Shown here one piece after another: positions 8,645 through 34,397 of a stretch of DNA of 34,414 bases (position 1 is the stretch's first letter; each line of letters begins with the position of its first letter). A program made the translations under genes and the position numbers. The stretch is taken from the NCBI GenBank assembly GCA_021778515.1, contig JAJYCJ010000026.1, positions 1 through 34,414 of the forward strand, given 5' to 3'. Below the pieces are notes generated by a model. It saw only the letters and a list, made by a program, of their open reading frames with translations, made no database searches and was not told the origin of the DNA. The stretch is from Acidobacteriota bacterium. GTDB taxonomy: Bacteria > Acidobacteriota > UBA4820 > DSQY01.

Positions 8645-9424
8645 CTACTCCTCCGGTTCGAGGGCCATTTTTTCCCGGCCAACGGGCACCGCCCGCTCCC
8701 GGAGGGTCACCTCCCGTCGCACCCGCGCCGCCCAGCGCGAGAAGACGGCCCGCGCCATCCGGCCTAGGGCGCTCGCGTGCGCCTGGGTCTGGATGGCCAG
8801 GGATTGGCGGGAGAGTCCGGCGGCGGCCAGGTCGCCCGGGAACGCCGACGCCATGGCCTCCACGGCGGCGGGGGTCACCTCCATGTGGAAGAGCAGGCCG
8901 TGGGCGGCACCGTACCGGAAGGCCTGGCAGGCGGTGAGCTCGGAGCGGGCGAGGGGCACCGCTCCATGAGGACAGTCGAAACGATCACCGTGCCAGTGAA
9001 AGACCACGGGCTCGGCCGCCGCGCAGAAGAGCGGATCGGACCCGGCCGCGGGCAGGAGCTTCACGGGCAGCCAGCCCACTTCGGGCCGGATGCCCCGGCT
9101 TACTCTGGCCCCGAGCACCTGGGCGAGGAGCTGGCTGCCGAGGCACACCCCCAGCGCCGGAAGGCCGGCTCTCAGGCCGAGCTCGATCAGCCTTTTCTCC
9201 TCTCGCAGAAAGGGGAAGCGGCCCTCCTCATCCACGTTCATGGGGCCGCCCATGATCACCAGGCCGGCGGTGCCGCAGAGGGTCCCGGGGATGGGGTCCC
9301 CCGCATATCCGCGGACGCGGCGGAAGGGAATCCCGCGCCCCAGGAGGGCCGCGCCGATGAGCCCTGGCCCCTCCGAGGGGGCGTGCTCGAAGACCAGAAC
9401 GGCCGGGGTGCTCGAGGACTCCAT
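8645..9424 (-). CDS. Class I glutamine amidotransferase-like protein (GMP synthase GATase type)
   Basis: A 259-residue triad amidotransferase domain standing alone. The nucleophile elbow GVCLGSQLL puts the catalytic Cys at residue 94, VFHWHGDRF (142-149) matches the family's HWH block, and His180/Glu182 in FHMEVTP complete the triad, so the glutaminase site looks intact. Proteins of this type hydrolyse glutamine or gamma-glutamyl compounds; some act as gamma-glutamyl amine hydrolases or in polyamine breakdown, and the substrate here is unknown. The C-terminal 50 residues are helical and basic. An alternative GTG start lies one codon upstream (9427); neither has a strong ribosome binding site. 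It heads a four-gene unit. Confidence 0.85.
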   Translation of the reverse strand: MESSSTPAVLVFEHAPSEGPGLIGAALLGRGIPFRRVRGYAGDPIPGTLCGTAGLVIMGGPMNVDEEGRFPFLREEKRLIELGLRAGLPALGVCLGSQLLAQVLGARVSRGIRPEVGWLPVKLLPAAGSDPLFCAAAEPVVFHWHGDRFDCPHGAVPLARSELTACQAFRYGAAHGLLFHMEVTPAAVEAMASAFPGDLAAAGLSRQSLAIQTQAHASALGRMARAVFSRWAARVRREVTLRERAVPVGREKMALEPEE

Positions 9425-9486
9425 CACCCCGCCAGGATCTCACAAGTCAGGCTGGGCTTGAAGGCCCGCGGCCCAAGCCGGCCCTC

Positions 9487-28959: not shown

Positions 28960-29061
28960 ATGCTTGAAGCCGGAAAGCCTGAGCGTATCGGTCCTCCGCA
29001 TGGGGTGCGCGGCCCCGAGGCGGAGGGGAGGGGGCGCCGGAGAGGCGCCCGGCGGCCATGA
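28960..29061 (+). CDS. Possible Arg-rich leader peptide coupled to the acetyltransferase
   Basis: A 33-codon ORF (MLEAGKPERIGPPHG..., ending RGRRRGARRP) with a GGGGAG ribosome binding site at the ideal six-base spacing. Its stop TGA (29059-29061) overlaps the ATG of the acetyltransferase gene as ATGA. Six of its last ten codons are for Arg. The downstream gene has no well-placed ribosome binding site of its own; the nearest GGAG, in the loop of hairpin 29032-29050, is 15 bases away. Translation of the acetyltransferase may therefore depend on this ORF. It could instead be a chance frame. Confidence 0.4.
   Translation: MLEAGKPERIGPPHGVRGPEAEGRGRRRGARRP
29032..29050 (+). promoter_or_regulatory. 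Hairpin in the leader with SD-like loop
   Basis: A perfect 7-bp stem (GGGCGCC / GGCGCCC) with the loop GGAGA lies eight bases before the acetyltransferase ATG, inside the leader ORF. The loop exposes a ribosome-binding-like GGAG. Ribosomes crossing the leader ORF would melt it. Confidence 0.45.
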
Positions 29062-29669
29062 GTAAAGAGGCCTCCCTGCCGGTGATCCGGCTGGCCACGG
29101 CCGAGGATGCCGGCGGAATCCTCGAGATCTACCGGCCGGTCGTAGAGCGGACCTCCATCTCCTTCGAGACGCGCTGTCCGACGGCGGAGGAGATGGCCCG
29201 CCGCATCGCCGAGGTCCGGCGGTCGTTCCCGTGGTTTGTCCTGGAGGATGGGGGCGCCATCCTGGGCTACGCCTACGCCAGCCCGCACAAGGACCGTGCG
29301 GCCTACCGCTGGTCCGTGGACGTGGCCGTCTACGTCCGGGAGAACCAGCGCCGGAATGGCGTCGCCGGCGCCCTCTACGAGGCGCTGCTTCCCTCCCTTC
29401 GGATGATGGGCATCCACAATGCGGTGGCGGTGATCGCGCTGCCCAATCCCGCGAGCGTGAGCCTCCACGAATCTCTGGGATTCTCTCTGGTGGGGGTCTA
29501 TCCGAAGATCGGTTTCAAGCTGGGCGAGTGGCACGACGTGGGCCATTGGCTTCTGCGCCTGAGGGAAGCGGAGGCTGACCCCGGCGCCCCGGTGCGACCG
29601 GACCGGCTGGAGCGTTCGGGGGAGTGGAAGGCCGCGCTCTCGGCCGCCTTGGCCGGTCTGCGCCCGTGA
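29058..29669 (+). CDS. GNAT N-acetyltransferase (phosphinothricin acetyltransferase-like)
   Basis: A 203-residue GNAT enzyme. It shows the PAT/MddA-type sequence: IRLATAEDAGGILEIYRPVVERTSISFETRCPT at the N terminus, GYAYASPHKDRAAYRWSVDVAVYV, the acetyl-CoA loop QRRNGVAGALYEAL, and LHESLGFSLVGVYPKIGFKLGEWHDVGHW at the end of the domain. Family members acetylate phosphinothricin, methionine sulfoximine or other amino acids; the natural substrate is often an amino acid analogue. The last 30 residues extend beyond the domain. The start codon overlaps the stop of a leader ORF. It is transcribed toward the LysW cluster, which runs the other way. Confidence 0.9.
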   Translation: MSKEASLPVIRLATAEDAGGILEIYRPVVERTSISFETRCPTAEEMARRIAEVRRSFPWFVLEDGGAILGYAYASPHKDRAAYRWSVDVAVYVRENQRRNGVAGALYEALLPSLRMMGIHNAVAVIALPNPASVSLHESLGFSLVGVYPKIGFKLGEWHDVGHWLLRLREAEADPGAPVRPDRLERSGEWKAALSAALAGLRP

Positions 29670-29899: not shown

Positions 29900-31054
29900 T
29901 CAGCCCAGGACCCTCTCCACGGCGTCGGCCACGCGGTCGAGGTCGTCCTCGCCGATGGTCAGCGGGGGCAGGAGGCGCAGGACGTTGGGGCCGGCGGGCA
30001 GGGCGAGGACGCCCTCGGCGGCGAGCCGGTCCAGGTGGGGCCGCACCTTCTCCCTGAGCTCAACGCCCACCATCAGGCCGAGGCCGCGGACCTGGCGCAC
30101 GCGCGGGCTGCGGATGGCGCCGAGGCGCGCCATGAGGGCCCCGCCCTTTCGCTCGGCCTGCTCCCATAGGCGCGTCTCCACCATGACGCCGAGGGAGGCG
30201 GAGGCGGCGGCGCAGCAGAGGGGGTTGCCGCCGAAGGTGGTGCCGTGCTTGTTGGCCTCGGCCCGGACCGCGGACGAACAGAGCACGGCGCCCATGGGCA
30301 GTCCGCCCGCGATGGACTTGGCGAGACAGACGAGGTCGGGCGCGAGGCCGAAGCGCTCGAAGGCGAAGAGGCGCCCCGTGCGGCAGAAGCCCGTCTGGAC
30401 TTCGTCGACGAGCAGGAGCGCGCCGCGCTCCCGGCAGAGGGCCGCGACGCCGGCCAGGTACTCGCCGTCCGCCACGTGCACGCCGCCCTCCCCCTGGACC
30501 ACCTCCAGGAGGACGCCCGCCGTCTCGCCGGTGACGGCGGCATCGGCGGCCTGAAGGTTGTTGAAGGGGACGAAGGCGAAGCCCTCCACCAGGGGGCCGA
30601 AGCCGTCCCGGTAGAGGGGATTGTGGGTGGCGCTCAGGGCGCCGAAGGTGCGGCCGTGGAAGGCCTGCCTCGCGCAGACGAATCGCGTGCGGCCCGTGGT
30701 GAAGCGGGCGAGCTTGAGGGCGGCCTCCACCGCCTCGGCGCCGGAGTTGCACAGGAAGGCGCGGCCGAGGCCCGATGGCGCCGCGCCGGTCAGGCGTTCG
30801 AGGAAGAGCGCGCGGGCGTCGCTGTAGAAGGTGTTGCTGCAGCTGATGAGGCGGCCGGCCTGCTGGCGCACGGTCTCCACCACGGCGGGGTGGCAGTGGC
30901 CGAGGTTGGCCGTCCCGTGGCCCGCCACGCAATCGATGTAGCAGCGGCCCTCCTGGTCCCAGACGCGGGCGTTCTCCCCGCGCACGAGGACGATGCCGCG
31001 CTTGGCGTAGAGGGGCAGGGCGTGGGCCTCTTCCATGGAGGCGAAATCGGTCAT
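29900..31054 (-). CDS. lysJ: [LysW]-aminoadipate semialdehyde/glutamate semialdehyde aminotransferase
   Basis: A 384-residue class III PLP aminotransferase of the ArgD/LysJ type. It turns LysW-gamma-aminoadipate semialdehyde into LysW-gamma-lysine, or the glutamate equivalent into LysW-gamma-ornithine. The PLP lysine is Lys246 in LAKSIAGGLPMGA; other motifs are LCNSGAEAVEAALKLAR, AFHGRTFGALSAT, LLLVDEVQTGFCRTG and HGTTFGGNPLCCAAA. ArgD and LysJ cannot be told apart by motif alone; position after lysZ in a lysX-led operon decides the name. The ATG overlaps the lysZ stop as ATGA, so translation is coupled. Part of its sequence recurs, degenerate, at 28842-28900. Confidence 0.9.
   Translation of the reverse strand: MTDFASMEEAHALPLYAKRGIVLVRGENARVWDQEGRCYIDCVAGHGTANLGHCHPAVVETVRQQAGRLISCSNTFYSDARALFLERLTGAAPSGLGRAFLCNSGAEAVEAALKLARFTTGRTRFVCARQAFHGRTFGALSATHNPLYRDGFGPLVEGFAFVPFNNLQAADAAVTGETAGVLLEVVQGEGGVHVADGEYLAGVAALCRERGALLLVDEVQTGFCRTGRLFAFERFGLAPDLVCLAKSIAGGLPMGAVLCSSAVRAEANKHGTTFGGNPLCCAAASASLGVMVETRLWEQAERKGGALMARLGAIRSPRVRQVRGLGLMVGVELREKVRPHLDRLAAEGVLALPAGPNVLRLLPPLTIGEDDLDRVADAVERVLG
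30116..30174. repeat. lysJ segment with a degenerate second copy at 28842-28900
   Basis: This coding segment of lysJ is the source-like member of the repeat pair described at 28842-28900. Here the frame is intact. Similarity falls away on both sides of the 59-base block, apart from a shared GCGGA just beyond the left edge. Confidence 0.7.
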
Positions 31055-31842
31055 TGGATCACCGTCCCCTTTCCTGACAGGGCTCCTTCGAGCGGATGGG
31101 CGGCGCGGCCGTCGGCCATGGCGACCCACACCGGCCCCGCCTCCAGCGTCCGCAGGATGGCGCGGAGCTTGCGCCGGAAGCGGCCCGGCGCACCGGCTTC
31201 GAGGTGCGCGAGTTCGTCCCTGCTCAGCGAGGCGATGGCCGAGGCCGGGTCCGACCGGTCCGCGAGGAGGCCCGCGGCCTCGATGAGGTGGACCACGCAC
31301 CGGGCGCGGAAGGTCTTCTGGAGGAGGGCCACCACCTCGTCGTTCTCCGAGTTCACCGCGAAGCCGTTCTCGTCGGCGATGGGCACCGTGAGGACGGGCG
31401 TGTAGCCCTCAGCGAGGAGCAGACGCAGCAAGGCGGCGTTCACCTCTCGCGGCTTGCCGGAGAGGTCGCGCTTGAGGACGATCTTGTCCCCCTCCCGGGC
31501 GCGGATGGCCGCGTTCCGGCGCCCGCGAATCACGGCGCCGTCGAGGCCCGTGAGCCCGACGGCGCACACGCCCCGCCGCAACAATGCCTCCACCAGCCGC
31601 TTGTTGCGCAGTCCGGCGTAGGCCATGAGCATGAGCTCCATCAGGGGCTCATCCGAGAGGACGCTGGCGTAGCCGCTGGCCGAGGTGAGCACCTCCAGGC
31701 GCACGCCGAGCTTTCCCGCGAGCTCGTCGCGCCAGGCGTTGGCGCCGTGCACGATGAGCACGGTCTCCCGCAGGGCCGCCACGTCCTCGGCGAGGCCCTC
31801 CAGGTTGAGGCCCTTGCCGCCGCCCACCTTGATTATGACCAC
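31051..31842 (-). CDS. lysZ: [LysW]-aminoadipate/[LysW]-glutamate kinase
   Basis: A 263-residue amino acid kinase related to ArgB. It phosphorylates the free side-chain carboxylate of aminoadipate (or glutamate) bound to LysW. The opening VVIIKVGGGKGLN corresponds to MIVVKVGGA of Thermus LysZ; VHGANAW replaces the VHGGG of ordinary ArgB, TSASGYASVLSDEPLMELMLMAYAGLRNKRLVEAL is the LysZ-type specificity region, and ALSGKGTVIQ is the usual C terminus. I choose the GTG at 31842: GGAGGG lies seven bases upstream and the start fits homologues, while the ATG at 31881 adds 13 unmatched residues. It overlaps the amidotransferase stop by ten bases and lysJ by four. Confidence 0.9.
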   Translation of the reverse strand: MVIIKVGGGKGLNLEGLAEDVAALRETVLIVHGANAWRDELAGKLGVRLEVLTSASGYASVLSDEPLMELMLMAYAGLRNKRLVEALLRRGVCAVGLTGLDGAVIRGRRNAAIRAREGDKIVLKRDLSGKPREVNAALLRLLLAEGYTPVLTVPIADENGFAVNSENDEVVALLQKTFRARCVVHLIEAAGLLADRSDPASAIASLSRDELAHLEAGAPGRFRRKLRAILRTLEAGPVWVAMADGRAAHPLEGALSGKGTVIQ

Positions 31843-32480
31843 GGAATGGCCCTCCGCGTCCCCGAGGGCAACGGCTCCCATGGGCCTTCATCCCCCGGGT
31901 AGGGCTCTGAGCAAATCACGAGTTCGCCGTCCGTGCGCCTCTGCGCCATGGTGAAGTAGTCGGCCTCGCCGTCGAAGAGGGCGTGGAGGTGGAAGCGCCC
32001 CGGCTCCGCGAGGATGAAGTTGCAGGCCCGGATGCGCGCGCTTCGCCGGACGAGGACCGCCGTGGTGCGGTTGATGGCCTCCGCGGCGTCGCCCCGGTCC
32101 ATGGCGCCGAGGAGGGCGAAGAGCTTGCCGGCGCCGGTCCGCCCGCGGAGGCCCAGCCTGACGCCCCGCATCTCGCCGTTGAAGACGAAGGCCCGCGACC
32201 CCCTGAGAAACGGCATGTTGTTCTCCTCCTCGATGCCCTCGTCGCGGAAGGCGCTGCGGGCGTGGGCCACGAAGGCGCGCACCTCGCCCTCGGGCCGGTA
32301 GTCGTCCTCCCAGATGGGGCGCACCGTGCGGTACCGCTCCCAGCGCCCTTCCCGCCAGACGGCGCAGCCCCAGCCGTGGCCCTGGTATTCGCGGCTTTCC
32401 CGGCAGAGGCGCCGGAAGGCATCGAGGTGGCGGCCCGCGTCGACGGGCGAGGAGGAGGCCACGGCGAGAAGGCGGCACAT
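31833..32480 (-). CDS. Class II (Ntn) glutamine amidotransferase, YafJ/EgtC-like, inside the LysW operon
   Basis: A 215-residue Ntn-hydrolase. MCRLLAVASSSP places the nucleophile at Cys2, exposed after Met removal. Other active-site blocks of the family are HGWGCAVW (35-42), VAHARSAF with His73/Arg75, NNMPF (Asn88) and FVFNGEM with the oxyanion pair Asn101-Gly102, so the hydrolase site looks complete. It lacks any synthase domain. YafJ is of unknown function; EgtC, in the same family, hydrolyses a gamma-glutamyl amide bond in ergothioneine synthesis. The gene starts two bases after lysY and overlaps lysZ, so it is part of the operon. A role in freeing product from LysW, or in supplying glutamate, is inference. 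Confidence 0.82.
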   Translation of the reverse strand: MCRLLAVASSSPVDAGRHLDAFRRLCRESREYQGHGWGCAVWREGRWERYRTVRPIWEDDYRPEGEVRAFVAHARSAFRDEGIEEENNMPFLRGSRAFVFNGEMRGVRLGLRGRTGAGKLFALLGAMDRGDAAEAINRTTAVLVRRSARIRACNFILAEPGRFHLHALFDGEADYFTMAQRRTDGELVICSEPYPGDEGPWEPLPSGTRRAIPWS

Positions 32481-32482
32481 CG

Positions 32483-33529
32483 TCACACCGGATGGAGGCC
32501 GGGGAATTCCAGCCCAGCCGTCTCGGGGAAGCCGTGCATGAGGTTGAAGCACTGGACGGCCTGCCCCGCCCCCCCCTTGACGAGGTTGTCCAGGGCAGAG
32601 AGGACCACGAGGCGGCCCGAGGCGGCGTCCAGCTCGAAGCCCACCTCGCAGGTGTTGGTGCCCCAGAGCACCTTGGGCTCCGGGTATCGGTAGTTCCCGT
32701 CGTGGCCCTTGACGATGCGGACGAAGGGCTCCTCTCCGTAGGCGTGCCGGTAGAGACGCCAGATCTCCTTCTCGTCGACGGGCCGGGTCGGAAAGACCTG
32801 GGCCGTGGCGAGGAGGCCGCGGACCTCGTCCACGGCGGTGGCCGAGAGGTGCACGCGAACGGGACCGCGAACGGCCAGCTCCTGCTCGATCTCAGCCTGG
32901 TGGCGGTGGCCCGTCGGACGGTAGGAGCGCAGGCAGTGGGCGCGCTCGGGGTGGTGACTGGAGGCCGAGAAAGCGGCGCCGCCCTCGCTGGAGCCCACCT
33001 TCACCTCCACCACGGTGCCATCTGCCGGGGCGATCCCCCCGGCGAAGAGCGGATGGAGCGCGAGGATGACGGCGGTGGCGTTGCAGCCGGCCACGGCCAC
33101 CATGCGCGAGGTTCGGATCTGTTCTCGGTGCAGCTCGGGGATGCCGTAGACGAAGCGGTCCAGGAGGTCGGGCCTGGGGTGGTCGAAGCCGTACCAGCGC
33201 GGATAGGCGGCCGGGTCGCGCAGGCGGAAGTCGGCACTGAGGTCCAGCACGCGCCCGGCCATGGGCAGAAGGGCCTCGGCGGCGGGAGCCGTCTCGCCGT
33301 GGGGCAGGCAGAGGAAGAGGGCGTCGCTGGGCGCCAGGGCGTCCCGCATGCTGAAGGTCAGGGAGGTTCGGCCGCGCAGGTTGGGATGCACCGTGCCCAC
33401 GCCGCGGCCCGCGTGGCGCTCCGAGGTGGCCTGGACGACCTCGGCGTCCGGGTGATGGAGGAAGATTCTCAGCAGTTCTCCGCCCGTGTAGCCGGAGGCT
33501 CCCACGATGGCCACGCGGAGCTTAGCCAT
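32483..33529 (-). CDS. lysY: [LysW]-aminoadipyl/glutamyl phosphate reductase
   Basis: A 348-residue ArgC-like NADPH-dependent reductase that turns the LysW-bound acyl phosphate into the semialdehyde. The Rossmann motif is [16 protein letters not shown] (7-22); the catalytic Cys149 is in [15 protein letters not shown], matching the ArgC/LysY active-site GCxxT/A motif, and the His in SSHHPERAH... region and [11 protein letters not shown] follow. [27 protein letters not shown] is typical of LysY/ArgC. The name LysY rather than ArgC rests on its neighbours lysX and lysZ. Its start overlaps the lysX stop by eight bases, so the two are translationally linked. Bifunctional use for arginine is possible. 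Confidence 0.92.
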
Positions 33530-34397
33530 GGGCGGCCCCGGCCAGGCTCTCCGCCCCGCGGGCGAGCGAGAGTACGTGCCGGACGATCAGCCCGGGGATG
33601 TCCACGCCGGTGGGCGCCACGCTGTTCTTGAACTCCATGGTGTGGTTGACCTCGTTGACGAGGTAGCCGCCCTCTCCCTCGAAGAGGTCGAGGGCCACCA
33701 CGTCGCCCTCCACGGCGCGCGCCGCCCGCACGCAGAGGCCGGCGAGGGCGTCCTCCACGGGGCAGCGGGTGGCCACGCCCCCTCGCGCCGTGTTGGTGAT
33801 CCAGTGCTCCGACGTCCGGTAGATGGCCGCCACGCACTCCCCGCCCACCACGAAGGCGCGGATGTCCCTGCCGCGCTTCTCCACGTAGCGCTGGATGTAG
33901 AAAATGCCGTGCTGGTAGCTGCCCAGGGTGACCTTGTGTTCGAGCAGCGCCTCCGCCGCGTCGCGGTCGTTCACCTTGGCCAGCAGGCGCCCCCACGAGC
34001 CCACGCAGGGCTTGAGGACCACGGGGTAGCCCATCTCCTCGATGGCGGCGAGGGCGGCCTCGGGCGTGAAGGCCGTCCGGACCTCGGGCTGGGGGATGCC
34101 CGCCTCCGCCAGGGCGATGCTGGTGAAGAGCTTGTCGCCGCAGAGGGCGACGGTGCGGGAGGGGTTGACGCACCGTACGCCGGCGCTCTCGAAGAGCCGA
34201 AGCGCGTAGAGGGCCCTGGAGTGCGTGAGGGAGCGGTCCAGCACCAGGTCCACGGCGGCCGGGCGGCCGGGAAGCGCGAAGGCCAGCGCGCGGTCGTCCA
34301 GGGGCACCACCTCCACGCCGGACTGGGAGGCCAGGACCTCGAGCAGGAGCTTCTCCTCGCGGCGGATGACGGAATGCAGAAAACCGATGCGGACCAT
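33522..34397 (-). CDS. lysX: LysW-aminoadipate/glutamate ligase (ATP-grasp)
   Basis: A 291-residue ATP-grasp ligase that joins the alpha-amino group of 2-aminoadipate (or glutamate) to the gamma-carboxylate of the C-terminal Glu of LysW. Blocks nearly identical to Thermus LysX include ACGDK-like [71 protein letters not shown] and [15 protein letters not shown], followed by TGVDIPG. GGAG lies five bases before the ATG. It is first in the visible operon; lysW itself, a small protein ending in EDWGE-like residues, is not in the window and presumably lies just upstream. Whether it takes aminoadipate only or also glutamate (ArgX role) is open. Confidence 0.95.

Follow-up and report, generated by a model that had tools for sequence, protein, structure and literature searches.

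A gene embedded in a LysW operon of an Acidobacteriota bacterium is proposed here to encode a LysW-specific γ-glutamyl amidohydrolase that releases lysine in the stead of LysK, the [LysW]-lysine/ornithine hydrolase, and that most likely also deamidates LysW proteins ending in Gln; we put the probability of this reading at roughly three-quarters. The system is a new variant within the known LysW lysine pathway, not a separate new pathway. The window, meaning the whole stretch of 34,414 nucleotides that was analysed, is an entire contig (G000:C50) and ends just past lysX, hence lysW is out of view. Its operon has the order lysX-lysY-GATase-lysZ-lysJ, where GATase denotes the gene under study, is tightly packed and lies entirely on the minus strand:

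29900-31054, minus strand: lysJ, [LysW]-aminoadipate semialdehyde transaminase (best NCBIfam match NF042418 LysJ, 444 bits, cut-off of 700 not reached)
31051-31842, minus strand: lysZ, [LysW]-aminoadipate kinase-like (NF010659, 216 bits, slightly below the cut-off of 223)
31833-32480, minus strand: GATase, class II (Ntn) amidohydrolase, EgtC-like (translation of 215 amino acids, AlphaFold model, operon conservation)
32133-32135, minus strand: codon for Gly116 of the GATase, in place of the α-amino-binding Asp of class II GATases
32475-32480, minus strand: codons for Met1-Cys2 of the GATase (Cys2 in 90 of 90 members; N-terminal nucleophile once Met is removed)
32483-33529, minus strand: lysY, argC-type LysW-aminoadipyl-phosphate reductase (TIGR01850, 381 bits; operon position)
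33522-34397, minus strand: lysX, LysW-aminoadipate ligase (TIGR02144, 331.8 bits, exceeding the cut-off of 275.6; Asn-Thr signature)

The placement of the GATase gene between lysY and lysZ agrees with the original prediction in both details, a two-base gap to the end of lysY at 32483 and a ten-base overlap with lysZ when the latter is read from the GTG at 31842 (VVIIKVGGG); an alternative lysZ start at an upstream ATG (31881) is possible. The lysZ stop and the lysJ start overlap by four bases, and lysJ also matches the argD family model TIGR00707 above its cut-off. The LysX of the window carries its Asn-Thr signature in a motif of ten residues, and this NT (AAA-type) signature is found in all 75 LysX rows from GATase operons; in a Sulfolobus LysX, changing Asn-Thr to Gly-Phe moves the preference towards glutamate (PMC10433800). 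In a sister genome, Acidobacteria MAG DBS2-1.bin89, whose GATase protein is 94% identical to that of the window, lysW and a homocitrate synthase gene stand directly upstream of lysX, which indicates lysine formation via α-aminoadipate. The lysW of this sister genome encodes a C-terminal Gln, not Glu.

The GATase protein comprises 215 residues, opens with Met-Cys and, as originally noted, has no synthase domain. Its sole curated match, TIGR03442 EgtC, scores 40.9 bits where the cut-off is 218.65, and the Pfam search returned only GATase_4, under the gathering score, with no M20 domain match. An AlphaFold model built with an alignment of 11 relatives (pLDDT 90.5, pTM 0.89) retrieved EgtC 4ZFL first in Foldseek (E = 1.3e-12, TM 0.77), followed by YafJ-type proteins and the glutaminase domain of GlmS. 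This predicted structure places the protein with the EgtC/YafJ enzymes as a stand-alone Ntn amidohydrolase, and the residues of the class II (Ntn) fold, C2, R75, N101 and G102, occur in 90 of 90 members. The Cys2/His73/Asn101-Gly102 site that had been described as intact is not only present but invariant across the 90 aligned relatives, together with Arg3, Arg75 and Ser76.

EgtC (TIGR03442; PDB 4ZFJ/4ZFK/4ZFL), the best match in both sequence and structure, is likewise a stand-alone Ntn hydrolase and cleaves a γ-glutamyl amide. However, the LysW-operon GATase has Gly for the substrate-binding Asp and Phe for the His of the HNG motif, and an identity with EgtC itself was rejected because the score lies far under the EgtC cut-off; the loci, moreover, are LysW operons rather than egtB/egtD clusters. 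The YafJ-type class II glutamine amidotransferases (GATase_4; PDB 1TE5, 3MDN) share the fold, Cys2 and the HxR and NG motifs, but their TDSE motif is replaced by I/T-G-A-E-K. Elsewhere in the window (8648-9439, minus strand) lies a gene for a protein with a class I glutamine amidotransferase domain, which has no relation to the LysW-operon GATase.

The association with LysW operons extends far beyond the window. Among 396 Acidobacteriota genomes, every GATase match with E < 1e-10 falls inside a lysW/X/Y/Z/J operon, where the gene either separates lysY from lysZ or follows lysJ immediately; the second placement, seen in several operons, is the slot that lysK takes in LysK operons. A wider scan with one genome per species gave 245 relatives, the best 80 of which were fetched with their flanking DNA. 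In all of these best 80, lysX, lysY, lysZ or lysJ adjoins the GATase gene, so that the operon arrangement recurs throughout in the search proposed with the original prediction; with the sister genome set aside the count is 79 of 79, and all five partners are visible in the fetched DNA for 47. The linked loci among these 80 span more than eight phyla plus two archaeal genomes, the bacterial hosts belonging to Pseudomonadota, Ignavibacteriota, Gemmatimonadota, Bacteroidota, Acidobacteriota, Calditrichota, KSB1, Myxococcota, Caldisericota and Planctomycetota, and the archaeal ones being a woesearchaeote and the AR15 archaeon. In one GATase operon (L174:5236-6947, plus strand), two lysX-like genes adjoin each other, possibly for two substrates.

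LysK, whose step the GATase is proposed to take over and whose post-lysJ slot it sometimes shares, is a metal-dependent M20 peptidase (TIGR01902) with an unrelated fold, in contrast to an Ntn enzyme with a cysteine nucleophile, and the two were never found together in the LysW genomes tested. LysX scored above its cut-off in 43 of the 396 Acidobacteriota genomes and LysK in 32, 30 of them with LysX. Of the 13 LysX genomes that lack LysK, 11 carry the GATase, against none of the 30 that have both LysX and LysK (Fisher p = 1.4e-8), a value that overstates the evidence because relatives from two old operon lineages are counted repeatedly. In the two remaining LysX genomes, which show neither gene, the DNA downstream of lysY is not fully visible: one contig (G131) stops just after lysY, while the other (G080, 5.35 kb) shows an unrelated reading frame at this position and lacks both lysZ and lysJ. 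Across 356 Gemmatimonadota genomes, centred on a Longimicrobiales genome, 38 carry the GATase, 3 carry LysK and none carries both. No LysK was detected in the flanking DNA of the 80 fetched GATase loci by a search that does detect it in known LysK operons, it is absent from six complete chromosomes carrying a GATase operon, and the 1.16-Mb genome of the AR15 archaeon gave no match whatsoever to TIGR01902.

The same holds for the genome of the window, where the absence of lysK beside lysJ, pointed out beforehand, extends to the whole window and, above the TIGR01902 cut-off, to the whole genome. Its five M20 proteins were considered as an unlinked LysK and rejected, being a dipeptidase, a CpsA-like amidohydrolase, a weak DapE-like protein, PepD and PepT; the genome still holds M20, M32 and other peptidases that could conceivably release lysine. 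In a LysX tree, LysK and GATase operons form mostly two old lineages; the tree requires two changes and yields two independent pairs, a number too small to reach significance. The weight of the exclusion lies in a repeated, phylum-wide either/or at an indispensable pathway step. For Caldithrix abyssi, the genome paper describes LysWXZYJ and Hcs in one locus, does not name LysK and suspects a non-orthologous displacement in the lysine pathway (PMC5317091); the LysW-operon GATase family is a direct candidate for this displacement.

A further feature of GATase operons concerns the carrier itself. LysW ends in Gln (EDWGQ) in 15 of the 65 LysX-linked rows from GATase operons, the sister genome among them, and in Glu in the other 50, whereas all 23 LysW proteins read from LysK operons end in Glu and none in Gln. 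The Gln-ended LysW loci are the following:

L058:6158-6349 (minus strand), L219, L059, L063, L064, L136, L140, L144, L145, L156, L161, L184, L191, L193 and L293

At least 11 switches between Glu and Gln are required on the tree, 7 of them forced by well-supported branches, and all fall within GATase lineages. Scaled by branch length, the expectation for LysK lineages is 3.3 such events, against none seen, a modest result (P = 0.035). In two of the loci (L063 and L064, from genomes G197 and G371), LysX and LysW are very divergent and lie on long branches; the GATase operon and the Gln-ended LysW are kept.

A LysW ending in Gln should be useless to LysX unless its side-chain amide is hydrolysed, and an enzyme that cuts LysW-Glu(γ)-NH-lysine would cut LysW-Glu(γ)-NH2 too. 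We somewhat favour the view that the GATase is a dual-function γ-amidase of the LysW C-terminus, a "Dop of the amino-group-carrier world", in which one Ntn enzyme activates Gln-ended LysW and releases lysine, replacing LysK in many phyla. For Pup, both deamidation and depupylation are performed by Dop (PMC8599861). The proposed likeness lies in the conversion of Gln to Glu and the hydrolysis of a γ-glutamyl isopeptide bond at the C-terminus of a small protein; Dop differs in its glutamine-synthetase fold, its ATP requirement and its role in proteasome tagging, and has no homology to the GATase. In the open-access literature we found no paper pairing LysW with an amidotransferase in a lysine-releasing role, or with EDWGQ.

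The alternative that survives best, although we consider it unlikely, is that the GATase is a proofreading or repair amidase clearing wrong LysW adducts, or a mere deamidase of Gln-ended LysW, while another peptidase frees the lysine. Action on the C-terminal amide would by itself account for the Gln-ended LysW proteins, and the genome of the window does offer other M20 peptidases. However, the Glu-ended majority of LysW proteins in GATase operons would need no deamidation, repair would be just as useful beside LysK, where the GATase is never found, and a LysK-like M20 match is lacking from the AR15 archaeon.

The residues lining the predicted active site bear on the substrate. In GlmS-type enzymes, though this is not knowledge gained on LysW-operon GATases, the free α-amino group of glutamine is bound by an Asp (Asp123 in GlmS) and its α-carboxylate by a conserved Arg. 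The position corresponding to this Asp is Gly116 in 90 of 90 LysW-linked members, but is occupied by Asp in L069 and L017, both unlinked homologues, and in 3MDN (TDSE motif). Similarly, Phe100 marks the LysW-linked GATases where the unlinked homologues and 3MDN have His, and position 119 is fixed as Lys or Arg in the linked group. LysW is loaded at the γ-carboxyl group of its C-terminal Glu (PMC10433800), a residue whose α-carboxylate is free and whose α-amino group is tied up in a peptide bond. The retention of the Arg together with the loss of the Asp fits such a peptide-embedded γ-glutamyl residue at the LysW C-terminus and, judged from these sequence changes, points to it as the substrate rather than free glutamine.

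The loss of the Asp makes the GATase a poor fit to a glutaminase acting on free glutamine, the second role suggested in the original prediction; glutamate (for LysJ) or ammonia would then be fed to the pathway. Such a role would suit a class II glutamine amidotransferase fold with Cys2 and the oxyanion Asn-Gly intact, but no pathway step needs ammonia, and it would leave unexplained both the absence of LysK exactly where the GATase is present and the Gln-ended LysW; we regard it as highly improbable. The other role suggested there, that of an alternative LysW-γ-lysine hydrolase, is favoured by the comparative and structural evidence, namely the exclusion of LysK, the recurrence of the operon and the residue changes.

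For this LysW-γ-lysine hydrolase reading, we propose the following hypothetical sequence of steps, in which (i) LysX would join α-aminoadipate to the γ-carboxyl group of the C-terminal residue of LysW, which, if it is a Gln by coding sequence, the GATase itself would most likely have deamidated to Glu beforehand; (ii) LysZ, LysY and LysJ would convert the LysW-bound aminoadipate to LysW-γ-lysine; (iii) the GATase would recognise the C-terminus through the Arg holding its α-carboxylate, the Asp for a free α-amino group having been lost; (iv) the N-terminal Cys2 would attack the γ-glutamyl amide of LysW-γ-lysine, upon which lysine departs; and (v) water would resolve the Cys2 thioester, regenerating LysW with a terminal Glu. 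An amine could attack the same thioester intermediate, and the GATase could then be a transpeptidase handing LysW from lysine straight to a new aminoadipate in an ATP-free recharging; this is very doubtful, as LysX, which would be needless for each turn, is kept in the operons. An accidental or regulatory association, with an unlinked enzyme doing the job of LysK, would be compatible with a split that tracks two old lineages of operons and in which independent switches are few, yet it is scarcely credible given invariant catalytic residues and linkage at all of the best 80 loci across such distant hosts.

If the proposed function is true, the missing last step of lysine synthesis would be filled in Calditrichota, Ignavibacteriota, KSB1, Gemmatimonadota, Acidobacteriota, Gammaproteobacteria and some archaea, and pathway predictions calling such organisms incomplete would be corrected. 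It would also define a new family of Ntn enzymes acting on a protein carrier and imply that LysW can be synthesised in an inactive, Gln-ended state needing activation, in parallel to Pup.

The surroundings of the operon differ between the window and the sister genome. In the sister genome, a few kb past lysJ, lies an arginine cluster with argG, argC, argD, an M20 enzyme and argB (G001:C56, L057:8097-13344). Its M20 protein (G001:C56:58097, 82.7 bits) was considered as a LysK candidate and rejected, as it scores below the LysK cut-off and lies inside the argG/argC/argD/argB cluster; we read it as ArgE-type. The window has no arginine cluster at the corresponding position; there, lysJ is followed by an acetyltransferase gene (29058-29669, plus strand), whose product is a GNAT member that passes the NCBIfam threshold set for ArsN1 family B (arsinothricin resistance).
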